A DNA stretch of 64,000 bases from NCBI RefSeq assembly GCF_030145145.1, contig NZ_JAQYWD010000025.1, forward strand, positions 1 through 64,000. The letters run 5' to 3'. The translations under genes and the position numbers were made by a program. Source of the DNA: Desulfobacula sp. (lineage in GTDB: Bacteria > Desulfobacterota > Desulfobacteria > Desulfobacterales > Desulfobacteraceae). Under the pieces are notes generated by a model. It saw only the letters and a list, made by a program, of their open reading frames with translations, made no database searches and was not told the DNA's origin. How positions within the stretch are numbered: position 1 is the stretch's first letter; the number at the start of each line of letters is the position of its first letter. Shown piece by piece: positions 39,421 through 55,842 of the stretch.

Positions 39421-40551
39421 TCAGGTATCATCCGGCAAGATTATTTTAAAGTCGGTTTCTTTTCCTTTTTTAGACATCACATGGATGGATCCCCCATGCT
39501 GTTTGATAATGGAGTTTGAAATATAAAGGCCAAAGCCGGTTCCTTTTGTCCCTTTTGAAGAAAAGAACAAATTAAATATTTTTTCTTTTGTTTGAGTGTC
39601 CATGCCGCAGCCATTATCGTGAATGTGAAACACCAGTTGATCTGTCTTTTTTAAAATTTCAAACCGGATAACATGCTCTTTTTTATCCCCATCCGCCAGG
39701 CAGGCATCAATGGCATTGTCTAAAATATTAATCAAGGCTGCCATGAAAAATTCTTCGTCCAGGCGCATGGTTTCAGGGCACTGGGTATCATTGCAATGAA
39801 AGGCGATGCCTGTTCCTTTCAGTTTCAATTCAATCGTTTGTTTGATCTGACCCATAAACCCCCTGGTATCAATGACGGTCCGATTGAGTTTTCTTTCCTT
39901 GGAATACAATAAAATATCCATGATCATCTTCTTTATCCGCTCAATGGCCTGTTCGAGCAGGTCCACACCCTCCTGGACAGTATTCGTATCCTTTTTTTTC
40001 AAGCCGGATCGCACCACATACACCCCCCCGTCAAGATTGGTCAACAGCCCCTTGATATTATGCGAGATGGTGCCGATCATCAATCCCAGAGAAGACAAAT
40101 GGTCGGCCATTTTGGACTTTTCAAGGATGAGAAGTTCAAGTTTTTGAGTGTATTCCAAAAGTTTTTGCCGTGAGATAATTTTTTCAACGGCCTTTTCAAC
40201 GGCGATTTCAAGGATATCCACATTGATGGGTTTGGTGATAAAATCGATGGCCTCATATTTGAGACTGCGAATGGTCAGGTCCATGTCCCCATGCCCGGTG
40301 ATCATTAACACTTCTGTTGCCGGATTTTCGCGTTTAATCTGTCGTAACAATTCAATACCGTTCATCACCGGCATTTTAATATCGGTAATGACAATATCCG
40401 GTTGTTTCGATTTGAATATCTCAAACGCCTTTTCACCATTTTCAGCAAGAAAGACGACATATCCGATATCCATCAGTGCAATTTCAAGAATATCCCGGAT
40501 ATCTTCTTCATCATCAACAATTAATATGGACACCTGGCTTCGATCAATCAT
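39421..40551 (-). CDS. Receiver domain-histidine kinase hybrid (last gene of Hdr operon)
   Basis: A 376-residue soluble protein. Residues about 8-120 are a CheY-like receiver (LIVDDEEDIRDIL; phospho-Asp in DIVITDIKMPVMNG). A coiled-coil follows, then a kinase phosphoacceptor box (GLMIGTISHNIKGLLTNLDG) and an ATPase domain (DNAIDACLADG, DNGCGMD, GTGFGLYISNSI). It likely takes a signal from a partner kinase and passes it on. 15 bp downstream of the heme-motif kinase gene. Confidence 0.9.
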   Translation of the reverse strand: MIDRSQVSILIVDDEEDIRDILEIALMDIGYVVFLAENGEKAFEIFKSKQPDIVITDIKMPVMNGIELLRQIKRENPATEVLMITGHGDMDLTIRSLKYEAIDFITKPINVDILEIAVEKAVEKIISRQKLLEYTQKLELLILEKSKMADHLSSLGLMIGTISHNIKGLLTNLDGGVYVVRSGLKKKDTNTVQEGVDLLEQAIERIKKMIMDILLYSKERKLNRTVIDTRGFMGQIKQTIELKLKGTGIAFHCNDTQCPETMRLDEEFFMAALINILDNAIDACLADGDKKEHVIRFEILKKTDQLVFHIHDNGCGMDTQTKEKIFNLFFSSKGTKGTGFGLYISNSIIKQHGGSIHVMSKKGKETDFKIILPDDT

Positions 40552-40566
40552 GTTCCCTCAATTCGG

Positions 40567-42867
40567 TTACGTTTCGTATACAATATCCTCTTCAGATGTA
40601 TCCGGCACGGGAAAGGATAACACGAAGATCGCTCCGCCCTGTTTTCCCTGCTCGACCTGAATTGTACCGGAGCACTCTTTGATAATGCCGTAACTGATGG
40701 ACAGCCCCAGACCGGTCCCCTTTCCCACTTCTTTGGTGGTAAAAAACGGTTCAAACAGCTTATCTGCGGTTGCTTGCTGAATCCCGATACCGGTATCGTG
40801 AATTTCAATGGTAACCATATCCTCAATAATTTTGGTGATGATGGTAATCCTGTCAACACCCCCAGGTCTTATGCCTTCTTTTTTCCATTTTTCTTCAATG
40901 GCATCTTTTGCATTAATCACAAGATTGATAAATACCTGTTCAAGCCGGTCCGGATCGGCCAGTATTTCCGGCAAGTCTTCATTTTTATCCCAGACAACAT
41001 CAATGCCATGAATTTTAAGCTGCTGGTTAAACATTTCAAATGTTCTTTGGAGGACACTATTCACATTCGTTCGAACCAGTTTGATTTCCGATTTCCGTGC
41101 AAACTGGCGCATGTGATGAATGATCTTTTCCGCCCGGTCCACATTGCTGTCAATTTTCAAAATCAGCTTGTGAAAAATATCCTTATCAATTTTCTCATTT
41201 TTCCGCATTTTTTTCATACAAAAACTGCTGGAGGATTTAATCACCGATAAGGGCTGGTTCAATTCATGGGCAATCCCGGTTGACATTTCACCCAGGGTGG
41301 CCATTTTACTGGCGTGCATCATATGCTGTTCTGTTTTAAGCCGCCGGGTAATATCATTTATGGTAACCAGCAGCACTTTCTGGCCGGAATATTTAGACGG
41401 CGATACCCACATATCAACATAGATGAATCGCTCCCGGGCAATGAGGTGTTTCACCTTGTTGATTTCCTGGCCAGACTTCATTTTTTTAATCAGCTCTGCT
41501 TTTTCCTTTTCGATAAAGAATTCGGAAAATATTTTTTTTAATAAGGCATTTTTCGAATACCCATACACTTCAACCGCTTTAATATTGCAATCCAGGACCT
41601 CAAAGGATTGAAACTCGATTACAAACACAGGATTTGAAATATTGTTAAATATGGCATGATACTTTTCCTCAGAGCTTTTAAGCTCTTTTTCAAGCCGTCG
41701 CCTCTGGGTGATATCAATGCTCATCTCCATGGCGGCAATGATATTTCCGTCTGCATCTGTTATGGGAGAGGTAATAAACATCCAGTAATTCTTTTCACCA
41801 TTTTTCCCCATGCCTTCGGCCTGGCCATAATGAGATTTTCCATCCATAAAGGTTTTTTCAACCGGACAATTGATGCATTTTTGTTCCAGGCCTTTATAGG
41901 CATGATAACACAGGGATCCGGGCTTGGGATCAAACCTGTCCTGGAATACCTTATTCCATCTTAACAACCGATAGTCTTTGTCCTGAACCGTAATCATGCA
42001 GGGGGCGGTTTCAAAAAGTGACTGGTATTCGTTTCTCTGCTTTTTTAATTCTGCCTGATCAAGACCGATCCGGGTGCCCATTTTTTTTATGGCCGTACTG
42101 AGAAGACCGATTTCATAATCATTTCCAATATCAATAGCCTGGTTGTAATTCCCTTCCGCAATTTTCTGGGTCCCCTCAATCAGCTTCTTGATCGGCTTTT
42201 TTACAAATTGTAAAATGGAAAAAAAAATGATCACAGATATGATGAAAATAGTCGAAAGCGCCAGCTTGATGATCCCCTTTTCAAGTTTCAACATTTGATG
42301 GTCTGATTGCTCAAGGGAAACCACCACATCAAGTGACCCCAGTATCTTTTGATGCCCGGGATGAAAATGGCACTCCGTGGCACAGCTGGGCTCATTGCAG
42401 ATGGGCTGAACAATCCCCAAAAGCCTGTGGCCCTTTTCAGATCGAAAAAACCGTGTCCGCTGCGCCAGCCCGATTTGATCCGATGGCGGGTTCTGATGAT
42501 GGCAAATCTCACAGGCCACTTCCTTGATATCAACAAATGTATCGATTTCTTCTTCCTGATTGGTAAATTTTATCTGACCCTCTTTATTGTATATTCGAAT
42601 CGTTTCTATTCCCGGCTGGGTGGCAATATTATTAATAATCTGTGTAATGTCATCCCTTGAATTCAGCATCATGGCATAATGGGTGCCAAGCTTGATGGAA
42701 TTTGACAGTCTGTCCGTACTGTCCATAAGGGTTTTCATCATCTGGGTCCGGATATGATTGATATTGAAGTATGCCCAGGCAGAAATGGAAAGAACAACCG
42801 TCAGTCCGACAATAATGATCAGTTTTGATACAAGGCTGTGTCTTAAATATTTAACAAAATCACTCAT
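40567..42867 (-). CDS. Membrane histidine kinase with c-type heme motifs in its sensor domain
   Basis: A 766-residue kinase. Two membrane helices (about 14-34 and 199-222) enclose an exported sensor with CEICHH (C119-C122-H123, a classic CxxCH heme c site) and CATECHFHPGH (C162, C166-H167, a CX3CH variant). Then HAMP, a PAS domain with a CINCP pair, a second PAS, the His box (GEMSTGIAHELNQPLSVI) and the ATPase domain (NLVINAKDAIEE, DTGIGI, GTGLGLSISYGI). It should read redox state or a gas/ligand outside the membrane. Its start overlaps the HdrB stop by 4 bp, tying it to the redox operon. Confidence 0.9.
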   Translation of the reverse strand: MSDFVKYLRHSLVSKLIIIVGLTVVLSISAWAYFNINHIRTQMMKTLMDSTDRLSNSIKLGTHYAMMLNSRDDITQIINNIATQPGIETIRIYNKEGQIKFTNQEEEIDTFVDIKEVACEICHHQNPPSDQIGLAQRTRFFRSEKGHRLLGIVQPICNEPSCATECHFHPGHQKILGSLDVVVSLEQSDHQMLKLEKGIIKLALSTIFIISVIIFFSILQFVKKPIKKLIEGTQKIAEGNYNQAIDIGNDYEIGLLSTAIKKMGTRIGLDQAELKKQRNEYQSLFETAPCMITVQDKDYRLLRWNKVFQDRFDPKPGSLCYHAYKGLEQKCINCPVEKTFMDGKSHYGQAEGMGKNGEKNYWMFITSPITDADGNIIAAMEMSIDITQRRRLEKELKSSEEKYHAIFNNISNPVFVIEFQSFEVLDCNIKAVEVYGYSKNALLKKIFSEFFIEKEKAELIKKMKSGQEINKVKHLIARERFIYVDMWVSPSKYSGQKVLLVTINDITRRLKTEQHMMHASKMATLGEMSTGIAHELNQPLSVIKSSSSFCMKKMRKNEKIDKDIFHKLILKIDSNVDRAEKIIHHMRQFARKSEIKLVRTNVNSVLQRTFEMFNQQLKIHGIDVVWDKNEDLPEILADPDRLEQVFINLVINAKDAIEEKWKKEGIRPGGVDRITIITKIIEDMVTIEIHDTGIGIQQATADKLFEPFFTTKEVGKGTGLGLSISYGIIKECSGTIQVEQGKQGGAIFVLSFPVPDTSEEDIVYET

Positions 42868-43730
42868 ATGGCCTTTTCAGTGAACGCACGGGTATTGGAA
42901 AGATTTAAATCCAGCCGGACATCGGTCAACGTCTTTCCCATGGCAAGACCTAAAAATTGTGGCAGAAATAGAACCGGTATATCAAGATCAAGCCCTTCTT
43001 TATGAGATATCTTTTTCTGGTTGCTTTCAAGGTTCATCTGGCACATGGGGCAGACCGTTAAAATAGCATCAGCCCCATGGGCCGCTTTCAATATATTTCC
43101 CACAAGCGCCATGCCGGCTTCCGGTTTTGTGCTGGTATTGGATGCACCACAGCATTGCCCCCCCATATCCCAATCAAAAACGCTTGCCCCTGTTGCCTGG
43201 ATCAATGCATCCATGGAATGGGGATCTTCCGGATCATCAAAAATCTTGAAAGGCCTTAAGCACTGACATCCATAGTAGGGTGCGACAACAAGATCCTTCA
43301 TTTTATGGTGAGACCCTGCTTTAATTTTTTCGATATCCACATCATTTGAAAGAACATCCAGCAGGTGCCGGACCTTCATCTCCCCTTTTAGAACAAGATC
43401 CTCCTCGGCAAGTACGGTATTAATTTTTTTTAATAGCGGCTTGTCCTTTTTGATGATTGCCTCGGTTTTTTTAAGATTCAGGTAACAGGCACTGCACGGC
43501 ACAAGGATCTCTTTTGAGCGGTTCATTTTTTCTGCCAGGGCCAGATTCCTTGCCGGCAGCACATAGGACAGCAAATGGCTTTGGGACTCCGCTGCAGTCG
43601 CCCCGCAGCAGCTCCAATCCTCAATTTCTTCCAGTTGAACACCGGCCGCTGCCATTAACAGCCTTGTGGAAATATCATATTCAGCTGAAGTGCCTTCCAA
43701 CGAACAGCCCGGGTAATATAGATAGTTCAT
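42864..43730 (-). CDS. hdrB: HdrB-like heterodisulfide reductase subunit
   Basis: A 288-residue protein starting MNYLYYPGCSLEGTSAEYDI; this start follows GAGGG and begins one base after the HdrC stop. Two CCG domains are complete: YPGCSLEG / DWSCCGATAAES / PCSACYLNL and YYGCQCLRPF / GGQCCGASN / CPMCQMNLES. In the family these hold non-cubane [4Fe-4S] clusters that cleave a disulfide. Partner of HdrC and the HdrA proteins. Confidence 0.93.
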   Translation of the reverse strand: MNYLYYPGCSLEGTSAEYDISTRLLMAAAGVQLEEIEDWSCCGATAAESQSHLLSYVLPARNLALAEKMNRSKEILVPCSACYLNLKKTEAIIKKDKPLLKKINTVLAEEDLVLKGEMKVRHLLDVLSNDVDIEKIKAGSHHKMKDLVVAPYYGCQCLRPFKIFDDPEDPHSMDALIQATGASVFDWDMGGQCCGASNTSTKPEAGMALVGNILKAAHGADAILTVCPMCQMNLESNQKKISHKEGLDLDIPVLFLPQFLGLAMGKTLTDVRLDLNLSNTRAFTEKAI

Positions 43731-43731
43731 C

Positions 43732-44277
43732 TCATCCCTCCAGTTCGGCAACTTTATTGAACAATGCAGTTAATTTCCCCTTGCTGCCGAAGGGAAATTC
43801 AGGGTGGACCTTTCCTTTGGACAACAGTTTAAGTCCCAAAACGGCGTAGGCGAACGGCAACACAGGATTTTTCATTGCCATAAAATACTGGGTCATAAAT
43901 TCCATTTCCTTGACCCTTCCATGTTTTTTAACACTGTCCAGAAAAGATTTATAGAAAAGGGAAGATCGTCGGAACTGCTTTAATTCCAATTTTGATGCTG
44001 CTTGTTTCAACAGGCTCATGGCAGCGGTCAGCTCAAGCCCCCGGGGACATCTTAATGTGCAATAATAGCAGGAGGAACACATAATAAAGGATTTGCTTGA
44101 AAAAATTGCGTCCATATGATCTGTCAGCAGCAACCGCCACATATGCCTGGGGGTGATGTCCATGAATTCAGTATTCGGACAGGATGCTGTGCAGGTACCG
44201 CATTGAATGCAGGTGCCGACCATTTCCTTGGCCGTTTCAGTCATTGCCAACAGACGATCATTCGTTGTCTGCCCCAT
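43732..44277 (-). CDS. hdrC: HdrC-like heterodisulfide reductase subunit
   Basis: A 181-residue protein starting MGQTTNDRLLAMTETAKEMV. Two [4Fe-4S] motifs: CIQCGTCTASCPN and CSSCYYCTLRCPR. It should pass electrons from HdrA to HdrB. AAAGGGG precedes the start at fair distance. Adjacent to HdrB as in known HdrABC sets. Confidence 0.92.
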   Translation of the reverse strand: MGQTTNDRLLAMTETAKEMVGTCIQCGTCTASCPNTEFMDITPRHMWRLLLTDHMDAIFSSKSFIMCSSCYYCTLRCPRGLELTAAMSLLKQAASKLELKQFRRSSLFYKSFLDSVKKHGRVKEMEFMTQYFMAMKNPVLPFAYAVLGLKLLSKGKVHPEFPFGSKGKLTALFNKVAELEG

Positions 44278-44357
44278 AATATTTCCCCTTTTTATTTTTA
44301 TGATCACCTCATCACTTGATCTTCTCTACAACACGCCGGCCCGGGTCACTGAACATA

Positions 44358-47300
44358 TCACGACAAAGCCATATCAATAGCATCCAGCATCTGTTGACTG
44401 CCAAGCCCCTCTAAAACAGCAGAACCGCTGGGACAGACAGCCGCACACACGCCACATCCCTGGCAGGCAGCCGGGTCGATCACAATTTTTTCTTCCAGGC
44501 TGTCAACAAACCGGGCACCATAGGGACACGTATCCACACACATCTCACACAGACTGCAGGTCGCGGTACGGGTCGTTGCCACGGTTTTCCCGGACACCAG
44601 CCGTTCATGGGCAAGCACCCGGACAGCCCTTATGGCTGCAGCTTCGGCTGAAGAAACAGCTTCTTCAATGGTACATGGTTTTAATGACAACCCACAGGAA
44701 AAAACCCGGTAATTCATGCTGTCCACCGGTCGAAATTTTGAATCCGCTTCCTTAAAAAAATGGAAACCATCCAGTGCTGCACCATATTGATCTGCCAGTG
44801 CTTCGGGAAGATCCGGCAAAATCCCCGTCGCATGGATAACACAATCGGCCTCAATCTCCACAGGCATATCCAGCAGGAGGTCATGGGTTTTAACCAAACA
44901 GTGGCCGTCCGTAAATTCCGTCACGGGTTTGTTTTCCAAATCATACTGGAAGAAAATCACCCCAAGGGTTTTTGCCCGGGTATAATAGTCTTCAAAGAAT
45001 CCATAGCTCATCATGTCTCTGTAAAGGATATAGACCTGGGTATCCGAATTTTTTTCTTTCAGGAAAAGCGCATTTTTCAATGCCCTGATGCAGCAGATCC
45101 TGGAGCAGTAATTCCGTCGTTCATCCCTTGTTCCGGAACACTGGATCATGACAACACTGTTCAATTGTTCCGGATGTATGGTTTGATCCTGAATGGCCAT
45201 CTCAAATTCTTTCTGGGTGAACACGTTGTACTGGGAATCCCCCACAGCCGGTTCAAGGGGGGCTTGATTTCCCCCTGTGGCCAGAATGGTCACCCCGTGT
45301 AAAAGTGTTTGGTGCCCTTTGTCCTCATGTTGTAACACAGTGGCAAATTCTCCCGGACGCTGGGCAGTGCTCGCCACCCTTGTCTGTTTGTGAATCGTAA
45401 TCTGCTCGTGGGACTCAAGTCGTTTGACGCATTCGTCCAGATACGCCTGGATATCCAGGCCGTCAACGGTCTTGTCCATCCACAAGAGATTCCCGCCAAT
45501 GGACTCCCCTTTTTCGATCAGGTCCACATGGTATCCGCAATCCGCGATGGACAGGGCCGACGTGATACCTGCGATCCCCCCCCCAATGACCAGGGCGGCC
45601 TGATTGGATGCAACCCGTTCCATTGGCACGGGATTTTTAAACCGGGACTTTGATATCAAAATCTTCAACTCTCTTTCAATCCCCTGGGTGGCCTCCCGGA
45701 TGTGTGACCCGGGATATCGTTTTAAAACAGACACCATATCCATTGTTTCAATAAGGTTTGAAGCGAGTCCTGTTGATGTTTCAAGTTGTTTGATTTTTTG
45801 TTTGTGACTGCAGGACAGACATGATCCCAGGACAAGCCGGTTGGGCATTTTTTTTTCAATCATCTCTATTAAAGTTGTCCATCCTTCTTCTGTGCAGAGG
45901 TTATCCATTATTTCCAGGGATTCGATTTCCGGAATTCTGGCCAGACCCGCCTCTAGAACTTCAACATCAAGCTTTTTAGAAAAATCACTGCCGCAACGGC
46001 ACAGCACCGTTAAAATTCTTGGCGTTTCCCTGGCCAAATCCACTGGTATTTCCCCATCACTTTCAGGACGTCTCCGTTTCCCGGCAGCGTGCATGACTTT
46101 ACAGGCACCTAACGCTGCAGCAGACGAACAGGTAACCGATTCACTGATATCCTTCAGTCCGGAAAGAGATCCGCCGGATAAAATCCCTGCCCTTGATGTC
46201 CGGGTCATTGAAAACGGCTGGGTTTCAATAAATCCCCAGGCGTTCGTGCCGATACTGTTTTTTGCGGCAAGGTCTGCCATCTGTTGATTCGGTCGCTGGC
46301 CGGTGGCCAGAACCACCAGATCAAAATCCTCTTCATGCACAATGCCCCCAAGATCTACATATCGGGCATGGAGACCTTTGTCTGCATGTTGACTGTCCTG
46401 AGAAAGGGAGTGGATCCTTGCCCTGACAAACCTGACCCCCTTTTCTTCCTGGGCAGTCAGCCGATAGCCGTCAAACGTCTTGCCAATGGTTCTCATATCC
46501 ATGTAAAAAATCGTGGTTTCAAGATCCCGGCCAAACTTTTCTTTGGCCAGGATGGCTTCTTTTATGGAAATCATGCAGCAGACAGAGGAACAAAAAGATG
46601 CCCCGGAATGGACATCCCGGGATCCCACACATTGAATCCAAGCCATTTTTCGCACGGGTTTGCCGGTTTGTGGATGCAGCAGCCTGCCACTACCGGGGTC
46701 TAAACCAGGCCCGGTACCGCTGATGAGCCGTTCAAACTCCAGTCCGGTTATCACCCCCGGCAGAACACCATATCCATAAGAATTTTTTCCCAGTTCAGGA
46801 CGAAAAAATTGTGTCCCCCCGGAAAGAATAAGGGCATCGACCTTTTCAACCCGTGCTTCAGCAATTTCAAATTCATGATAAATTTTCACCACCATGGAAA
46901 TCAGCACATCCGGATCAAACGGCTTGGTCAAATAATCCAGCGCGCCCTGCTTCATGGCGCCCACAGCGGAATCAACCTCGGCATACGCGGTCATCATGAT
47001 AACACAGAGATCCTCGTTGATCTGTTTTGCCTTGGTCAAAAGCGCCACCCCGTCCATACCCGGCATCTTGATATCGGTGAGCATCATATTGAACGATTGG
47101 GAACCCATCAGGTCAAGGGCTGTTTGTCCTGAATCCGCGGTTGAAACGGAAAATCCCTCTTCCTTGAGCCATTCTTTCATGGAGTCCCGAACGATTTTTT
47201 CATCATCCACCACCAGGATCTTAAACGTTTCCCTGTCCTGTTCTATAAACTTGACAGCCCCTGTGGGACATATTTTTTCACACTCCCCACACCGGGTGCA

Positions 47301-47792
47301 TGCTGCGTAATCAATGGTGTAGGCATTGGCAAAAGACTGGGGACTTGGCAGATAAATCGCCTTTCTTTTTGTCAATCCTTCATTAAATGCATCATTGACA
47401 AAAACAGGACAAACCGTTTCACATTCTCCGCACCCCGTGCACAAGTCCGGATCAATCAAGGAAGGGGTTTGCTTGAGGGTTACGGTTAAATCACCCGGTT
47501 CTCCTTCAACAGATATCAGTTCCGTTGACAAAAGAATGTCAATATTTTCATGGACAAGCCCCTTTCTCAAACAATGCTGGGAAGACCTGTCCCTGTCAAA
47601 CATGGGCAGCATACGGCAATATCCGCAGGTGGATGTGGGAAACTGGTGATCAAGCTGACACAGAAGACCACCAATGTGATCTGATGTGTCAATGAGGAGA
47701 ACCTTATAACCGGTTTCAGCCAGATCCAGTGCAGACCTGATACCGCTCAACCCCGCCCCGGCAACCACTGTTCTGCCAATTGCTTTATTCAT
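44358..47792 (-). CDS. Double HdrA-like flavoprotein with inserted CheY-type receiver domain
   Basis: 1144 residues. N-terminal FAD-binding part (VVAGAGLSGIRSALDLAETG), two [4Fe-4S] motifs (CTGCGECETVCP, CTRCGECEKICP), then at about residues 191-305 a full response-regulator receiver: ILVVDDEKIVRDS, phospho-Asp D240 in LTDIKMPGMDG, MMTAYAE, and DYLTKPFDP with the conserved Lys. HdrA sequence resumes at once (ILSGGTQFF, GLEFERLISGTGP, CVGSRDVHSGASFCSSVCCM). A second HdrA half follows from about 720 (IGGGIAGITSALSIADCGYH, CSGTRDERRNYCSRICCI) and ends with two clusters (CSLCEMCVDTCP, CQGCGVCAAVCP). It likely forms the flavin core of an HdrABC complex whose activity could be set by phosphorylation. 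Confidence 0.92.
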   Translation of the reverse strand: MNKAIGRTVVAGAGLSGIRSALDLAETGYKVLLIDTSDHIGGLLCQLDHQFPTSTCGYCRMLPMFDRDRSSQHCLRKGLVHENIDILLSTELISVEGEPGDLTVTLKQTPSLIDPDLCTGCGECETVCPVFVNDAFNEGLTKRKAIYLPSPQSFANAYTIDYAACTRCGECEKICPTGAVKFIEQDRETFKILVVDDEKIVRDSMKEWLKEEGFSVSTADSGQTALDLMGSQSFNMMLTDIKMPGMDGVALLTKAKQINEDLCVIMMTAYAEVDSAVGAMKQGALDYLTKPFDPDVLISMVVKIYHEFEIAEARVEKVDALILSGGTQFFRPELGKNSYGYGVLPGVITGLEFERLISGTGPGLDPGSGRLLHPQTGKPVRKMAWIQCVGSRDVHSGASFCSSVCCMISIKEAILAKEKFGRDLETTIFYMDMRTIGKTFDGYRLTAQEEKGVRFVRARIHSLSQDSQHADKGLHARYVDLGGIVHEEDFDLVVLATGQRPNQQMADLAAKNSIGTNAWGFIETQPFSMTRTSRAGILSGGSLSGLKDISESVTCSSAAALGACKVMHAAGKRRRPESDGEIPVDLARETPRILTVLCRCGSDFSKKLDVEVLEAGLARIPEIESLEIMDNLCTEEGWTTLIEMIEKKMPNRLVLGSCLSCSHKQKIKQLETSTGLASNLIETMDMVSVLKRYPGSHIREATQGIERELKILISKSRFKNPVPMERVASNQAALVIGGGIAGITSALSIADCGYHVDLIEKGESIGGNLLWMDKTVDGLDIQAYLDECVKRLESHEQITIHKQTRVASTAQRPGEFATVLQHEDKGHQTLLHGVTILATGGNQAPLEPAVGDSQYNVFTQKEFEMAIQDQTIHPEQLNSVVMIQCSGTRDERRNYCSRICCIRALKNALFLKEKNSDTQVYILYRDMMSYGFFEDYYTRAKTLGVIFFQYDLENKPVTEFTDGHCLVKTHDLLLDMPVEIEADCVIHATGILPDLPEALADQYGAALDGFHFFKEADSKFRPVDSMNYRVFSCGLSLKPCTIEEAVSSAEAAAIRAVRVLAHERLVSGKTVATTRTATCSLCEMCVDTCPYGARFVDSLEEKIVIDPAACQGCGVCAAVCPSGSAVLEGLGSQQMLDAIDMALS

Positions 47793-47839: not shown

Positions 47840-48982
47840 CTATTCTTCCCTTGCAATACCCACGGTATTCTCAAACTCTCGCTCATAAAAAACAGACAAC
47901 GGAGGCGATTCATTCTCATCTGTTCCCGGTGAATATTCAAAAGCTGCCTGGGTCAGCCGGGCCACGCTCTTAAACAATTGGAAAACATTTATATCGCTGG
48001 GGCAGGCATTGGAACACTGACCGCATCCGACACAGGCATGACTCATGTGGGCCATTCGGGTGAGATGATAAAAGGTCGTATCCGTGGGCAGCTTGATGCT
48101 GCCTTTTTTTTCTGCCCACTGATGATATTGAACCGGCTGATGATGAAACACATCGGTATTAAAGACACACTCTTTACAATAGCAGACCGGGCACATGTTC
48201 CGGCAGTTATAGCAATTGATGCACCGATCAAAAAAAGCATTGAGCTTCACAATACTGTCTGTCCTGTCTGTGATATCTTCAATCATTGCCGTGTTGGCCG
48301 TTGAATTCCCCTCTTTTATCTGCTGTATCCTCTCCTCCCGCCTGGCCGGGGCTGTGGCTTCCGGCAGGTTCAGACGTCCCAGGACCTGTTGACCGGCTTC
48401 AGTCTCAGCTGTCACCACCATACCATCTGAAAGGTCAACACCATGCAGCAGGATATTGATATCCGTGTTAACGGGAAACGGATGCTCACAGGTATTACAG
48501 GCACTGCTGAATTCAAACCCGTTCAGCGTATCATTGTTGTCTGAAAAAACCGTTTCAATATAGGCATCATCCGCCAGGGGTGCTTGTTTGGCATACGCCG
48601 CATAATCTGACGAGGTCAGTGCTTTAGGACAATCCATGCCGATCAGGATCAACTCCTGGCGGGAGCCTTGTTTGAGCTTTATCAGTTCAATAAACGCACG
48701 GGTTTCACAAGGCCGCAGCAATACCGCTGTTTTCCGTCCCGATGCCTTATATGAAAGACGGGATACCATCCTTGCCGAATTAAGGGGAAACGACGGGCTT
48801 AACGGCACGGCATTTTCCAGTTGAGCCGGATCTGTCACCAGGGACGGCATAATGGACGTTGACGCATTTAATCTGACCGGCAGAAAAAGGGCATCAATCT
48901 CCTGCATTTCCAGGAGCTGTTTAAAAAACTGCTGCAACCCTTTGGCAGAACTGTTATCCTCACGCTCTATTTTAGTCATCAT
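47840..48982 (-). CDS. FrhB/FdhB-like Fe-S flavoprotein with dicluster ferredoxin domain
   Basis: A 380-residue protein. The core has the pattern of the F420-hydrogenase/formate-dehydrogenase beta family (AVLLRPCETRAFIELIKLKQ, LILIGMDCPKAL, EFSSACNTCEHPF). Two [4Fe-4S] motifs follow (CINCYNCRNMCPVCYCKECV and CVGCGQCSNACPSD). Such proteins bring electrons from NAD(P)H, F420 or formate systems to partner enzymes. Between mvhD and the receiver-bearing HdrA; it may serve as the complex's electron entry or exit point. Confidence 0.82.
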   Translation of the reverse strand: MMTKIEREDNSSAKGLQQFFKQLLEMQEIDALFLPVRLNASTSIMPSLVTDPAQLENAVPLSPSFPLNSARMVSRLSYKASGRKTAVLLRPCETRAFIELIKLKQGSRQELILIGMDCPKALTSSDYAAYAKQAPLADDAYIETVFSDNNDTLNGFEFSSACNTCEHPFPVNTDINILLHGVDLSDGMVVTAETEAGQQVLGRLNLPEATAPARREERIQQIKEGNSTANTAMIEDITDRTDSIVKLNAFFDRCINCYNCRNMCPVCYCKECVFNTDVFHHQPVQYHQWAEKKGSIKLPTDTTFYHLTRMAHMSHACVGCGQCSNACPSDINVFQLFKSVARLTQAAFEYSPGTDENESPPLSVFYEREFENTVGIAREE

Positions 48983-49001: not shown

Positions 49002-49424
49002 TCATATGGCCTTGTTCAATCTTGTCTGAGAAGGCCCCATTTCAATTATTTGATCATTTATCTGCGTCATGATTTCGGCAAATTCGATACCATCGCTTGC
49101 CCCGATCCATGTCAGCCGCAACCGATCCTTTTCAATGCCAAACCGGGGAAGGATTTCTTTTAATAATTTAATCCGGCGTCTTGCCTTGTAGTTACCATTG
49201 ATGTAGTGACAGTCGCCCGGATGGCAACCGCTTATCAAAACGCCATCTGCGCCTTCAAGAAATGCCTTGATCACATATTGCGGATCGACCATTCCCGTGC
49301 ACATGACCCGGATCAGGCGGATGTTTGTGGGGTAAGACAATCGTGACGTCCCTGCAAGATCCGCAGCCGTATACGTACACCAGTTGCAGACAAAAGCGAT
49401 GATAACAGGTTCAAATGGTTCCAT
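49002..49424 (-). CDS. mvhD: MvhD/FlpD-like [2Fe-2S] electron-transfer subunit
   Basis: A 140-residue protein starting MEPFEPVIIAFVCNWCTYTA, with AAGGAGA before it; a frame reaching 69 codons further upstream overlaps the preceding gene and is rejected. Conserved Cys: CNWCTYTAADLAG, RVMCTGMVDP, SGCHPGDCHY. In methanogens MvhD passes electrons from hydrogenase or formate dehydrogenase to HdrA. No hydrogenase gene is in this window, so another donor is implied. Confidence 0.93.
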   Translation of the reverse strand: MEPFEPVIIAFVCNWCTYTAADLAGTSRLSYPTNIRLIRVMCTGMVDPQYVIKAFLEGADGVLISGCHPGDCHYINGNYKARRRIKLLKEILPRFGIEKDRLRLTWIGASDGIEFAEIMTQINDQIIEMGPSQTRLNKAI

Positions 49425-49434
49425 TTTATTCTCC

Positions 49435-52400
49435 TTAAAAAATACCGCTGATTTCGGCAAAAATCTGTTTTGGGGTAAAATGTCTGCTGGATGCGGCGCC
49501 ACTGGGGCAAAACCCGGAACAGCTCCCGCATCCCTTGCAGATGGCTTCATTGACAACCGACACCTGCCGTCTGTCGTCAAACTCAATGGCTGAATACGGA
49601 CAAAGGCTGATACAGGTTTTACACCCCACACAGATATCAGGATCTATATAAGAAATGGTGGGCGAGATATCAACCTGGCCCCTGGCCGCAAGGGACAAGG
49701 CTTTTGCAGCCGCTCCCGATGCCTGGGACACCGTATCCGGTATGTCCATGGGCTTCTGGCAGCATCCGCAGAGGAAAACCCCTTCTGTTGCCGTATTCAA
49801 GGGGCCCAGCTTGGGATGTTCTTCAAGAAAGAACCCGTCTGCCCCCTGGTTGACGCCAAACACCCGTCCCACATCTCCGGTATCTTCTCTGGCCTGGATG
49901 GCGGTGCAGAGAATCACCATGTCCACGGGGACCCGAAGCAGTTCCCCTAAAAGGGTATCTTCTGCAATGGCGATCAATTTCCCCTGTTCCGAAGGATTAC
50001 GGGCTTTATCGGTTATCTGGGCCACTTTTCCCCGGATAAAAATTGTTCCCTCTTCCTGGCACCGTTTATAAAATTCTTCATACCCTTCACCAAAGCACCG
50101 CATATCAATGTAAAAGTCATAGACCTTGGTGTCATGTCCCACTTTTTCTTTGATCAAATGGGTATATTTTAAGGCATACATGCAGCAGACCCGGGAGCAG
50201 TATTCGTGAAAATTCACATCCCGGCTCCCGACACAATGAACAATGGCCACACTTTTCGGTGATTTTGTAAACGCATTATTCTCATCCCGGATCAAAATTT
50301 TACCGCCGGTGGGACCGGTGGCATTGCTTAACCGTTCAAATTCCAGGGCAGAAAACACATTGGCAAACCGGCCGTACCCGAATTGTTTCAGGGGGGTGGG
50401 TTCCAAAGCGTCATAACCGGTGGCAAGGATGATACTGCCGGCATGTACCTGGATGGTTTCTTCTTTCATAAAATGATCAATGGCTTTGGCCTCGCAGACA
50501 CTGACACATTCCATACATTCACAGCAGGTCGCACAATTCAGGCACCGCTGCGCTTCTTTTACGGCCTGTTCTTCCGTCAGGGTTGCTTCAACTTCTTCAA
50601 ACGACTGAACCCGGTGTTGCGGATCAACCGAAAGAACCTGCACCCGGTGTTCAACCGCCGTATCTAAGGGGATGTCCGCATAATTTTCAGGTGTCACCCC
50701 CGGATGGAACATATCGTCCGCTTGATCCATTTCAACCTTGTTAATATAATTATCAATACCAACGGCTGCTTTTCTTCCCTGGGCAATGGCCTCTATGACC
50801 GTTGCAGGTCCTGTGACCATATCGCCGCCTGCAAAAACCGTTTCCAGGGAGGTTTGCAGGGTCACCGGATGGGTCTTTATCCGGTTGTAGGGGGTGATCT
50901 CAAGGTCGGGCATTGAATCCGCCCAGGACAGATCTGTTCGCTGACCAATGGCCGGAATCAGGGTGTCACAGTCAATAACAAATTCAGAGCCGGGAATATT
51001 GACCGGTCGCCTGCGCCCGGAGGCATCTGCTTCACCCAATTGATTTTTTATACATTCAATGCCTTGAATCCTGCCATCCCTGCTGATAATGCCGATGGGT
51101 GCCGTCAAGGTTAAAATATGAATGTTTTCCTCCATGGCCCCGATAATTTCTTCCTCATATGCCGGCATTTCCTCCCGGGTTCTCCGATAGAGAATGGAAA
51201 CATCACAGTCGCCGGTCCTTTTGGCACACCTTGCCGCATCTATGGCCACATTACCGCCGCCGACGATCATCACCTTTCGTCCACAATCTGTCTGGCGGCC
51301 CAGGTTCACATCCCGTAAAAAGGTCACGGCATCCATCACCCCTTTTGTCGATGCTTCTCCATCAAGGCCGAGGGAGAGAGATTCATGGGCACCGGAACTT
51401 AAAAAAATGGCAGAAAAGCCCGCCTTTGTCAGGCTCGCATATGTCACATCCGTTCCAAAAGCCGTGTCGGTGACAAGGGTGATCCCGTGGGCCAGAATAA
51501 AGTTAATTTCTCTGTCAAGCACTGCTGCCGGAAGTCTGTAATCCGGTATCCCGGTTTTCAGCATCCCGCCGGGAACCGGCAATCGCTCAAAAACCGTCAC
51601 CCGGTATCCCTTGAGACGCAGGAAATAAGCAGCCGTCAACCCGGCGGGCCCTGCACCGATGACGGCAACGGTTTCTTCCCGATCCATAATATCAGGGATG
51701 TCTGCAGTCTCAAAGGCTGCCCTGTCAGCAGCAAATCGTTTCAGCTCTTTGATGGCAATGGGTGCATCCACTGATTTTCGCCGGCATTCGGCTTCGCAGG
51801 GATGGGGGCAAACCCTTCCCAACACACCAGGGAACGGGGCTTTCTCCATAATCAGCCGGGCGGCCTTATCATATTTCTTCTGACCGATCAGTTGAATATA
51901 TCCCTGGACATTAATCCCGGCAGGACAGGTTAACCGACAAGGGGCAAGATCTCGTTTCTCAATGTTATAGGTAATGGGGATTGCCTGGGGAAACGACCGG
52001 CCAATGGCCTTTCTTGATGCCATACCCACATCCCAGGGGTTGGGGATGGAAACAGGGCACACAGTGGCACATTCACCACAGCCCGTGCACAGGTCCTGTT
52101 TAATGTATCGTGATTTTCGCCTGACATCCAATGTAAAGTTACCGATAAACCCTGAAACATTGGTGACCTCACTAAAGCTGAGCAGCTCGATATTCGGATC
52201 TTGACCCACTTCCACCATTTTGGGGGTGCCGATGCAGGCGGCACAATCAAGGGTGGGAAATGTTTTGTCAAATTGAAGCATATGACCGCCAATGGTGGTC
52301 TCGCGTTCAATCAAATATGCTTTGTGACCTGAATTCCCGATATCAATGGCCGCCTGCATGCCCGCAATCCCGCCCCCAATGATCACCACGTTGGGATTTA

Positions 52401-52863
52401 CACCGGATGTTTTTGTTTCAAGATGGGTATGAAACTTCACCCGTTGAATGGCAGCCGTCACCAGGTGCTTTGCCTTTTGGGTGGCCAGGGATTCATCCTC
52501 AGTCACCCAGGAGACCTGTTCTCTGACAGAAGACATTTGGAAATAATACGGATTGAGCCCTGCCCGTCGGCAGGTTTCCATGAAGGTTTTTCCGTGAAGT
52601 CTGGGCGAACACGATGCCACCACCACACGATTCAGTCCCAGTTCCCGGATATCTTTTTCAATCATGGCCTGACCCGGTTCTGAACACATAAATTTATAAT
52701 CCCTTGATACCGTAATCCCTTCCAGGGTCTTCACATAATCTCTGACAGATTCAACATCCACCTTGCTGGCGATATTCAACCCGCAATGGCAGATATAAAA
52801 ACCGATCTTGCAGGGTTGAACGGTCAAACGGGCAGTCTTTCCAGGGGCAAACTTTCCAGACAT
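49435..52863 (-). CDS. HdrA-like flavoprotein with inserted GltD/NfnB-type NAD(P)H oxidoreductase module
   Basis: 1142 residues. The N-terminal HdrA part has CHCGLNIASKVD, IGGGIAGMQAAIDIGNSG (FAD site) and CTGCGECATVCP. At about 305-785 there is a complete glutamate-synthase-small-subunit-like module: Cys-rich start (CRLTCPAGINVQGY, CPHPCEAEC), FAD site GAGPAGLTAAYFLRLKGY, NAD(P)H site GGGNVAIDAARCAKR, and GGDMVTGPATVIEAI. HdrA then resumes (CCECMECVSVC, IILATGYDALEP, CVGSRDVNFHEYCSRVCCM) and ends with two [4Fe-4S] motifs (CVGCKTCISLCP, CKGCGSCSGFCP). I infer a flavin-based bifurcating core that can use NAD(P)H directly. Confidence 0.93.
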   Translation of the reverse strand: MSGKFAPGKTARLTVQPCKIGFYICHCGLNIASKVDVESVRDYVKTLEGITVSRDYKFMCSEPGQAMIEKDIRELGLNRVVVASCSPRLHGKTFMETCRRAGLNPYYFQMSSVREQVSWVTEDESLATQKAKHLVTAAIQRVKFHTHLETKTSGVNPNVVIIGGGIAGMQAAIDIGNSGHKAYLIERETTIGGHMLQFDKTFPTLDCAACIGTPKMVEVGQDPNIELLSFSEVTNVSGFIGNFTLDVRRKSRYIKQDLCTGCGECATVCPVSIPNPWDVGMASRKAIGRSFPQAIPITYNIEKRDLAPCRLTCPAGINVQGYIQLIGQKKYDKAARLIMEKAPFPGVLGRVCPHPCEAECRRKSVDAPIAIKELKRFAADRAAFETADIPDIMDREETVAVIGAGPAGLTAAYFLRLKGYRVTVFERLPVPGGMLKTGIPDYRLPAAVLDREINFILAHGITLVTDTAFGTDVTYASLTKAGFSAIFLSSGAHESLSLGLDGEASTKGVMDAVTFLRDVNLGRQTDCGRKVMIVGGGNVAIDAARCAKRTGDCDVSILYRRTREEMPAYEEEIIGAMEENIHILTLTAPIGIISRDGRIQGIECIKNQLGEADASGRRRPVNIPGSEFVIDCDTLIPAIGQRTDLSWADSMPDLEITPYNRIKTHPVTLQTSLETVFAGGDMVTGPATVIEAIAQGRKAAVGIDNYINKVEMDQADDMFHPGVTPENYADIPLDTAVEHRVQVLSVDPQHRVQSFEEVEATLTEEQAVKEAQRCLNCATCCECMECVSVCEAKAIDHFMKEETIQVHAGSIILATGYDALEPTPLKQFGYGRFANVFSALEFERLSNATGPTGGKILIRDENNAFTKSPKSVAIVHCVGSRDVNFHEYCSRVCCMYALKYTHLIKEKVGHDTKVYDFYIDMRCFGEGYEEFYKRCQEEGTIFIRGKVAQITDKARNPSEQGKLIAIAEDTLLGELLRVPVDMVILCTAIQAREDTGDVGRVFGVNQGADGFFLEEHPKLGPLNTATEGVFLCGCCQKPMDIPDTVSQASGAAAKALSLAARGQVDISPTISYIDPDICVGCKTCISLCPYSAIEFDDRRQVSVVNEAICKGCGSCSGFCPSGAASSRHFTPKQIFAEISGIF

Positions 52864-52891: not shown

Positions 52892-54481
52892 TTAGTCTCG
52901 TTTACTTTTATCTTCCGATTCCTTTGGGGGAAGCTTAATCATAAATTCAGAACCGGCATTCAGACGACTCTCCACCACAATCGTTCCTTTATGCTTTTCA
53001 ATGATGCCATAGGCCGAGGACAGACCCAGTCCCACGCCATACCCTTCATTTTTTGTGGTAAAAAAAGGCTCGAAAATAAAATTCAAATCTTCTTCTGAAA
53101 TCCCCTTTCCATTATCTTTTATGGAAATAAAAACCAGGTTTTCTTTCCGGTTAAACCCTGTCCGGATTTCCAGTGCCCCCCCATTTTTCATGGCATCAAT
53201 GGCATTAAAAATCAGGTTGATGATACACTGCTCCAGCTGATTAAAATCTCCGCATATGGGGGGAATTTCAGGGTCGCAATGCTCGCTTAAAACAATATTG
53301 CTCAAAGCAAGCTTATGGTTGCACAACAAAAGGCTGTGGTGAATCAGGTCTGCGACATCAATACTGTTTTGTTCCAGTTTTGTTCGCCTTGAAAATTTCA
53401 ACAGTCCCGACACAAGATCAGAACATCTCTGGGTCTCAGATTCTATAATTTTCAGATAAGACGCGAACTTGTTGAGTTTATCCGGTGTCAAATCCTTTGC
53501 CATGTTACCGTCTTTGCCGCTGATTCTAATCATCAGCCGGATATAATTCAAAATCCCGGACAAGGGGTTGTTAATTTCATGGACCATGCTTGCTGCAAGC
53601 CGTCCCAAAGATATCAATTTTTCCCGGTGAAGCAGCTTTGCCTGATCCGTCACTTGCTGTTCCAGGGTTCTCAGGTCCCGCAAATCACTGATAAACAGCA
53701 CCATGCTGTTTTGGACCGTATCCCGGGAGAGGATAAAGCCGGAAACTTGAACCGGAATATCCTTTTTTTCCATTGAAAGCAGGGCGGTTTCATAGAGAAA
53801 CAACCGATTTTCGCCACCGAAATGGCTGCCGGACAGATCTTGTTTTAATTTTAAAAACCGTTCGGGTTTAAAAAAGTCCTTTGCCCTCATTTTTTTCAAT
53901 ACCAGGGCTTTTGGATACCCCACCAGTTTTTCCATGCTCCTGTTATAGGTCAAAACAGTATCGTTTTCATCGCATCCAAGGATGCCATCCATTGAATTTT
54001 CAATGAGACTGCTTTGAAAATTCACATTCTTTACCAGTTCAGCACTGGTTTTCAAATTTTCGTTCTCAAGCAGGGAGGTATAGTCCGACAATTGTTTTCG
54101 ATCAACATATCGTTGCATGGCCCGTTTCAAAGCCATGTGCAGGGCACCGTCATCAATGGGTTTTGAAATAAAATCCGATGCATCATACTGCAGGGCTTTG
54201 ACCGCCTGTTTAATATCGCCAAACCCCGTGGTAACAATGACCTCTGTTTCAGGTTTTATTTTTTTTATTTTTTCAAGGACTTCAAGACCGTTCAGGCCGG
54301 GCATTTTAATATCGGTGATGACGATCTGGGGTTCTTCCCGTGTGGCAAGCATCAGGCCCGCATAGCCATCCGGCGCGCAAATGACTGAATATCCGGCATC
54401 TTTCAGGGTAATTGCCATAATATCCCGAATATCTTCGTCGTCATCGATTAAAAGTATCTTCCAATTTATGGGCAACGCCAC
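52892..54481 (-). CDS. Receiver-PAS-histidine kinase hybrid (first gene of Hdr operon)
   Basis: About 529 residues from GTG at 54481, which follows AGGAG; the ATG at 54523 lies upstream of the sigma54 transcription start and cannot be used. Order: receiver (KILLIDDDEDIRDIM; phospho-Asp in VITDIKMPGLNG), PAS (SSLIENSMDGILGCDENDTV), His box (RLAASMVHEINNPLSGIL), ATPase domain (NLIFNAIDAMKNG, DNGKGIS, GVGLGLSSAYGI). Soluble. With the second receiver-kinase and the receiver inside HdrA it offers a phosphorelay within one operon. Confidence 0.9.
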   Translation of the reverse strand: MALPINWKILLIDDDEDIRDIMAITLKDAGYSVICAPDGYAGLMLATREEPQIVITDIKMPGLNGLEVLEKIKKIKPETEVIVTTGFGDIKQAVKALQYDASDFISKPIDDGALHMALKRAMQRYVDRKQLSDYTSLLENENLKTSAELVKNVNFQSSLIENSMDGILGCDENDTVLTYNRSMEKLVGYPKALVLKKMRAKDFFKPERFLKLKQDLSGSHFGGENRLFLYETALLSMEKKDIPVQVSGFILSRDTVQNSMVLFISDLRDLRTLEQQVTDQAKLLHREKLISLGRLAASMVHEINNPLSGILNYIRLMIRISGKDGNMAKDLTPDKLNKFASYLKIIESETQRCSDLVSGLLKFSRRTKLEQNSIDVADLIHHSLLLCNHKLALSNIVLSEHCDPEIPPICGDFNQLEQCIINLIFNAIDAMKNGGALEIRTGFNRKENLVFISIKDNGKGISEEDLNFIFEPFFTTKNEGYGVGLGLSSAYGIIEKHKGTIVVESRLNAGSEFMIKLPPKESEDKSKRD

Positions 54482-54512
54482 GATATCTCCTTCCCCTGTT
54501 GCATTATATATT

Positions 54513-54665
54513 GCAAACAACATGCCAGTAGGAGACTATTTCTGAACCTGCACCAACCCCTTTATATTTAAAGGGATTGAGACGGTATTGAACCCAAGCT
54601 AAAAAAACAAAAAAAAAGCAGGAAGCAAAACTGCGACCTTATAACAAGGTATAATGCAATAGTGC
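54513..54665 (-). promoter_or_regulatory. Sigma54 promoter with two upstream activator sites for the Hdr operon
   Basis: Minus strand TGGCATGTTGTTTGCA: GG at 54526-54525, GC at 54514-54513, exact register and consensus TTTGCA. Expected start near 54502, 21 nt before the GTG. Upstream sites GCAAAACTGC (54625-54634) and GCAATAGTGC (54656-54665) share GCA-N4-TGC; their centres are 31 bp (three turns) apart, and the first is 116 bp from the -12 element. Confidence 0.78.
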
Positions 54666-55104: not shown

Positions 55105-55656
55105 TTAAGCCCGCCTGCCGCCCATGCCCTGGCCGCCGCCGCCCCCCATGCCGCGACCACCGCCGCCGCCCATGCCTCTTCCACCGCCGCCGCCCATGCC
55201 GCGACCACCGCCGCCGCCCATGCCCCGGCCGCCGCCACACCCTATTCCGCGTCCCTGGCCCTGGAGGATAGGGTTCCCCTGACCTGGTGCAGATGCCAAT
55301 CCAGCCTTTTCATTCACCGTTGGATGATCAGAAGGTGTCAAACCGCCCGCTTTGAATCGCGCCACTGCGTCCTTGATCGAACCTGCCTGTCCCGTAACAA
55401 CCGGAATATTGCATTCTGCAAAGACATTCATGGCATTGGGTCCGCAATTGCCTGTCAAAACGGTTTGAACATCTTTTGAGTGAATAAAGTTTGCCGCCTG
55501 AATACCGGCCCCCCCTCCAAGGGATTGATAGGTATTCTCAAGGGCTTCAAAGCGCATATCATCTGTCTGAACAATGATAAAATACGCGCATCTGCCAAAT
55601 CGGGGGTCTATCTGGGAATTCATATCTTTTCCAGTTGAACTGATGCAAATTTTCAT
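55105..55656 (-). CDS. NifX/dinitrogenase cofactor-like protein with Gly-Met-Arg repeat tail
   Basis: A 183-residue protein starting MKICISSTGKDMNSQIDPRF after GGAGA. Residues 1-110 are the NifX-type domain (RFGRCAYFIIVQ, TGNCGPNAMNVFAE). After a linker the C-terminus is a low-complexity tail of GRGMGGGG units (about residues 138-183). The tail may be a disordered metal- or partner-binding arm. First gene behind a sigma54 promoter; likely co-transcribed with the 54689-55042 gene. Confidence 0.87.
   Translation of the reverse strand: MKICISSTGKDMNSQIDPRFGRCAYFIIVQTDDMRFEALENTYQSLGGGAGIQAANFIHSKDVQTVLTGNCGPNAMNVFAECNIPVVTGQAGSIKDAVARFKAGGLTPSDHPTVNEKAGLASAPGQGNPILQGQGRGIGCGGGRGMGGGGGRGMGGGGGRGMGGGGGRGMGGGGGQGMGGRRA
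55123..55242. repeat. Five tandem 24-bp repeats coding the GRGMGGGG tail
   Basis: Units start with CATG at 55123, 55147, 55171, 55195 and 55219; the three central copies (55147-55218) differ at only a few bases. Each codes eight residues on the minus strand. Length is likely to vary between strains by slippage. Confidence 0.85.
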
Positions 55657-55720
55657 GGTGTTCTCCATTCTTAGGGTTAAAAAAAGGTATGGGTGCCATA
55701 CGTTCTTTTGATAAGGTATT

Positions 55721-55842
55721 GCAAGGAGAATGCCAGGTGCCATCTGTCATCCCAGTTAAAAAAAATAGACTTAAAATCAAATAGTTATAAAATAAACAAA
55801 TAAAACAGGGCGTTGAAAGGCGGTACACAAACGCAGAACTGC
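55721..55842 (-). promoter_or_regulatory. Sigma54 promoter and upstream activator site for the NifX-like genes
   Basis: Minus strand TGGCATTCTCCTTGCA: GG at 55734-55733 and GC at 55722-55721 in exact register. The site GCAGAACTGC (55833-55842), followed by AAC, is centred 116 bp from the -12 element, the same distance as in the Hdr operon. The activator gene ends 39 bp further upstream. Confidence 0.78.

Follow-up and report, generated by a model that had tools for sequence, protein, structure and literature searches.

Can a two-component system act directly on the electron-bifurcating machinery of an anaerobe through a receiver domain built into HdrA? Discussions of how anaerobes control bifurcation usually turn on thermodynamics or transcription. 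The question is raised by a gene on the minus strand (44358..47792) of a 64,000-nucleotide stretch of Desulfobacula sp. DNA, called the window below. It encodes a 1144-aa double HdrA with an inserted response-regulator receiver, named here HdrA(REC), as judged from a stop-free reading frame, Pfam matches and comparison with solved HdrA structures.

Half 1 of HdrA(REC) is a FAD domain with an inserted ferredoxin domain. The first part of its FAD/TrxR-like fold (residues 1-112; 47457..47792, minus strand, as are all domains and operon genes below; domain search and comparison with HdrA structures) is followed by the ferredoxin domain with two CxxCxxCxxxC motifs (residues ~113-183; 47244..47456), the receiver (residues ~188-311; 46860..47231; Pfam match and AlphaFold2 (beta-alpha)5 fold) and the second part of the FAD/TrxR-like domain (residues ~317-570; 46083..46844; comparison with HdrA structures). 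Half 2 is formed by an Fe-S domain of the HdrA N-terminal type (residues ~589-720; 45633..46028; alignment to the N-terminal part of 5odc), a second FAD/TrxR-like domain (residues ~730-1060; 44613..45605; domain search and structure comparison) and a C-terminal 2x[4Fe-4S] ferredoxin domain (44403..44570; domain search, alignment and structure comparison). The TrxR-like GxGxxG motif is present twice, and its glycines (G12/14/17 and G737/739/742) are invariant among the aligned homologues. Eight cysteines of the C-terminal ferredoxin domain are found in 39/39 homologues and eight of the inserted one in 37/39.

Pfam Response_reg covers residues 192-301 (E=6.7e-31), with HdrA-type 4Fe-4S and FAD domains on either side. 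Residues 9-188 match HdrA 147-316 of 9sfi and residues 309-505 match 315-501 of 5odc; the receiver directly follows the inserted ferredoxin domain, at 5odc position about 313-315. The preliminary description of this DNA had placed it inside HdrA, after the ferredoxin part and before the rest of the FAD domain, and both Pfam and the solved structures agree with this location; its borders are corrected slightly, to about 46860-47231. A structure prediction had also been proposed there. The AlphaFold2 model (mean pLDDT 81.4) returns a receiver fold at residues 191-311, with five alternating strands and helices in the (beta-alpha)5 order and pLDDT per ten residues of about 63-91, mostly 75-91. The best Foldseek matches of HdrA(REC) are HdrA chains.

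The insertion is not a product of assembly. Homologues with 48-87% identity span both receiver junctions in many assemblies made independently, several of which are single-contig genomes, so that we give practically no credence to a misassembly at 46880-47225 or to a chance fusion of reading frames. A query covering both junctions was matched in 26 genomes of 58 relatives. A search for the HdrA-receiver architecture, suggested at the outset, found matches in 153 of the 389 genomes sampled from the class. Ten of them, with E of about 1e-41 to 1e-50, were removed; those examined among the ten were short Usp-REC proteins. Thus, 143 of the 389 genomes, about a third, carry the HdrA form, and it also occurs in members of the phylum outside the class. 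Among the carriers are Desulfonema magnum 4be13, Desulfotignum MAGs, Desulfoferrobacter suflitae, an Olavius algarvensis symbiont and Candidatus Desulfatibia vada. Of about eight double HdrA proteins in the window's own genome only one bears a receiver, and no receiver-bearing HdrA is present among the matches listed from a plasmid collection. Many marine sulfate-reducing bacteria possess an HdrA with a complete receiver that is predicted to be phosphorylatable.

The receiver has the full active site. The preliminary description had named the phospho-acceptor D240 with the conserved Thr and Lys, and D196, D197, D240, T268 and K290 are indeed all there, intact in 39/39 aligned homologues (the predicted phospho-Asp codon of D240 lies at 47073..47075). 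In a second, partly overlapping set of 61 loci the five catalytic residues are intact in all 59 that are fully readable; of the remaining two, one contains a position that could not be read and the other does not extend over this region. Overall identity of most intact-site homologues is about 41-60%. In contrast, a sister clade from another order of the phylum, probably Desulfovibrionales, has kept the receiver domain with an intact active site in 0/30 proteins. The insertion is at the same site (L188-L190, L199-L228) and all eight ferredoxin cysteines are retained.

The two clades also differ in which faces of the receiver are preserved. In the intact clade alpha5 varies, and conservation is seen in the kinase-facing alpha1, in alpha4 and in the active-site loops (conservation scores 0.76, 0.88 and 0.50 for helices 1, 4 and 5), whereas in the pseudo-receiver clade the pattern is reversed (0.44, 0.59 and 0.74), with W300, D302, K303 and R307 of the strongly conserved helix 5 nearly or fully invariant. 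From this we infer that helix 5 fastens the receiver to HdrA; in the intact clade, phosphorylation and switching would be the task of helices 1 and 4 and the loops. Since the domain persists without its active site in another order, part of its role is structural. The alignments indicate that the intact receiver is selected for phosphorylation chemistry, and in our reading HdrA of the intact form is controlled by phosphorylation, with the other form as its pseudo-receiver sister clade.

Candidate kinases are encoded next to HdrA(REC). The conserved operon order is HdrL-MvhD-FdhB-like-HdrA(REC)-HdrC-HdrB-haem-motif kinase-receiver kinase. Upstream of HdrA(REC) are the genes of HdrL, an HdrA with an inserted GltD/NfnB-like NAD(P)H-binding domain (49435..52863), an MvhD-like protein (49002..49424; reading frame and conserved position, with the start codon chosen in this analysis) and an FdhB/FrhB-like 4Fe-4S protein (47840..48982), named from the gene order and the paper on Desulfobacterium autotrophicum HRM2. 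Downstream are those of an HdrC-like 4Fe-4S protein (43732..44307; domain search and synteny) and an HdrB-like CCG-domain protein (42864..43751; PF02754, E=1.1e-21). They are followed by HK766, a HAMP-PAS-PAS histidine kinase (40567..42867), and RRHK376, a receiver with a histidine kinase (39421..40551); a second receiver-kinase, RRHK_up, is located at 52892..54523. Thus, the two receiver-kinases and the heme-motif kinase noted at first sight are borne out by domain search and alignments, in which the catalytic residues of the kinases are conserved. An NtrC-type activator gene is found near the operon, and positions 55105-55743 of the window encode a protein that by eye is NifX/MRP-like and has a long Gly-Met-Gly-rich repeat tail.

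HK766, with HAMP and two PAS domains, is a predicted membrane kinase. Its extracytoplasmic part carries two conserved motifs of the cytochrome-c type, an invariant CxxCH (119-123) and CxxxCH (162-167), and from these motifs it is inferred to bind haem. HdrL, MvhD and the FdhB-like gene adjoin HdrA(REC) in 38/40 loci with enough flank, and HdrC and HdrB each do so in 34/39. HK766 or RRHK376 adjoins it in 34/39 such loci, and in 31/42 of a second set of named loci. Beside the HdrA of the pseudo-receiver clade, HK766, RRHK376 or RRHK_up is found in 0/9 loci. A working phospho-switch in HdrA is supported by these patterns, because the active site is conserved and is lost in the clade without the adjacent kinases.

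Genome-wide, HK766 co-occurs with HdrA(REC) in 115/143 genomes versus 44/246 others, in raw counts that ignore kinship; a strict orthologue is missing from 28 of the 143. Simple absence of HK766 does not explain the decay of the pseudo-receiver, as 18 of 31 pseudo-receiver genomes still hold a more distant homologue. What is lost in these genomes is the linkage of the kinase to HdrA. Covariation of the receiver with the three kinases, with few variable specificity columns, gave p of about 0.28-0.37 and singled out none of them as the partner. We suggest that the adjacent kinases probably set the HdrA receiver. In one genome (L233:5870-16363) the neighbours of HK766/RRHK376 homologues look like genes for a Usp protein and for a Tmc-type membrane complex, and the Hdr genes of that genome lie far away; looking for the Tmc kinases of D. 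vulgaris gave no match.

How did the receiver enter HdrA? In a tree of the shared backbone the intact, pseudo-receiver and receiver-less proteins form separate groups with support of 96, 99 and 100. With the root, not established by the tree, assumed on the receiver-less branch, this fits one insertion, after which one clade lost the active site. HdrL has its GltD/NfnB-like insertion within the HdrA ferredoxin region, so this region has accepted domain insertions more than once. An origin of the HdrA receiver from the neighbouring receiver-kinases is not supported, as their receivers form separate groups in the receiver tree. Receivers of Usp-REC-Usp proteins branch within those of HdrA with moderate support. 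These proteins, of about 437-474 aa (L080-L083, L091, L092), belong to the same receiver subfamily, but their flanks are Usp-like by eye and not HdrA; some are encoded in the same operon as HdrA(REC). In two related genomes (L089:8406-11216 and L090:6844-9654) the inserted ferredoxin domain is gone with all eight cysteines and the receiver is intact, thus gating through this domain cannot be the general mechanism; that the intact receiver was kept after this loss counts in favour of phosphorylation control.

HdrA(REC) shares with HdrA of the methanogen HdrABC-Mvh/Fdh/Elp complexes (5odc, 7bkb, 8rvu) the FAD/TrxR fold, the inserted ferredoxin, the N-terminal Fe-S and the C-terminal ferredoxin domains, as well as the neighbourhood of HdrB, HdrC and MvhD genes. 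However, unlike in the methanogen protein, two HdrA units are fused in one chain with the domains divided between the halves, and a receiver of ~123 residues is added behind the ferredoxin domain. The other double HdrA proteins of this genome that were compared (L002-L008) are paralogues with the same backbone, 33-36% identical to HdrA(REC), but are without a receiver and form a separate clade on a long branch. In three of them (L005, L006, L008) an in-frame TGA, possibly encoding selenocysteine, is located in or before the N-terminal part.

The preliminary description knew of no enzyme of this kind, and this holds in part. A literature search, incomplete for subscription papers, found no description of a receiver inside HdrA or heterodisulfide reductase. 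Response regulators with metabolic-enzyme domains are nevertheless a described class, including predicted thioredoxin-reductase-type fusions (PMC5847659). They have in common with HdrA(REC) a receiver and an enzyme domain in one chain; unlike in the archaeal fusions of that study, which are described as narrow in distribution, in HdrA(REC) the receiver is within the enzyme chain and the form is found across a class. The gene itself was probably catalogued in 2009: locus VIII of D. autotrophicum HRM2 has tandem hdrL/hdrA4 with fdhB-like, hdrB and hdrC genes in PMC2702500, where HdrL was also defined. The locus of one sampled genome with the receiver form of HdrA (G195, L088) fits this description. 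In that paper hdrA4, probably the HdrA(REC) orthologue, was listed as hdrA, apparently without remark on a receiver.

On balance we favour, by a modest degree of belief, HdrA(REC) as the HdrA subunit in a soluble complex of the Hdr type, with activity set by phosphorylation of the built-in receiver. The complex would comprise NAD(P)H-linked HdrL, MvhD, the FdhB-like protein, HdrA, HdrC and HdrB of sulfate reducers; its ability to bifurcate is assumed from homology. D240 would be phosphorylated by HK766, a soluble receiver-kinase, or both. The switch helices (alpha4 face) may then alter how the receiver, together with the ferredoxin domain beside it, docks on the FAD domain or a partner. Depending on redox state, the ferredoxin branch of low potential, or else the entire enzyme, would be opened or closed, and phosphorylation may turn it either on or off. 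Domain motion is used for gating in HdrA complexes (PMC12350162).

A bolder form of this proposal is possible, though we hold it only tentatively: two-component phosphorylation would switch flavin-based electron bifurcation directly, as the preliminary description had supposed, in the first such enzyme. The periplasmic haem-sensing kinase would report the redox state, and phospho-HdrA would shift how electrons are shared between ferredoxin and the disulfide/DsrC branch without new gene expression; the sister clade that lost the switch would be a natural control.

Phosphorylation might instead govern assembly or location, for instance binding of the Hdr complex to membrane HK766 or a partner complex, and not catalysis. 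Receivers often switch protein contacts, the alpha4 face is conserved, HK766 is membrane-bound, judging by its HAMP domain, and the kinase pair by Tmc-type-like and Usp genes in one genome points the same way. We regard this as rather unlikely: the receiver adjoins redox centres instead of a terminus, which favours a direct effect on catalysis.

It is improbable that the signal flows in reverse, with HdrA as the input, its flavin or Fe-S redox state altering receiver phosphorylation and the receiver acting as a phosphate sink that depends on redox state, or as a brake on the operon kinases. Receivers without DNA-binding output can serve as sinks, and several receivers and kinases are gathered in one operon with the NtrC-type activator nearby. 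But a sink has no need of a place inside HdrA, and the catalytic cysteines of HdrA are all preserved, as are HdrBC and MvhD, so that HdrA(REC) looks like a working enzyme subunit. Quite improbable is a mainly structural receiver, a spacer or docking domain with incidental phosphorylation: the other order keeps the domain and its alpha5 residues with no intact site, but the window's clade strictly conserves the five catalytic residues and the kinase face and keeps the kinases alongside.

Last but not least, the favoured reading, phosphorylation control of HdrA(REC), implies that energy metabolism may be under the control of a sensor that acts on the enzyme directly and not on its genes. Intact and dead receivers in the same enzyme of two clades make the question accessible to comparison and to a single point mutation of D240. 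If the receiver in HdrA controls it, signalling would act on an enzyme that helps to set the ferredoxin supply in abundant sulfate reducers.
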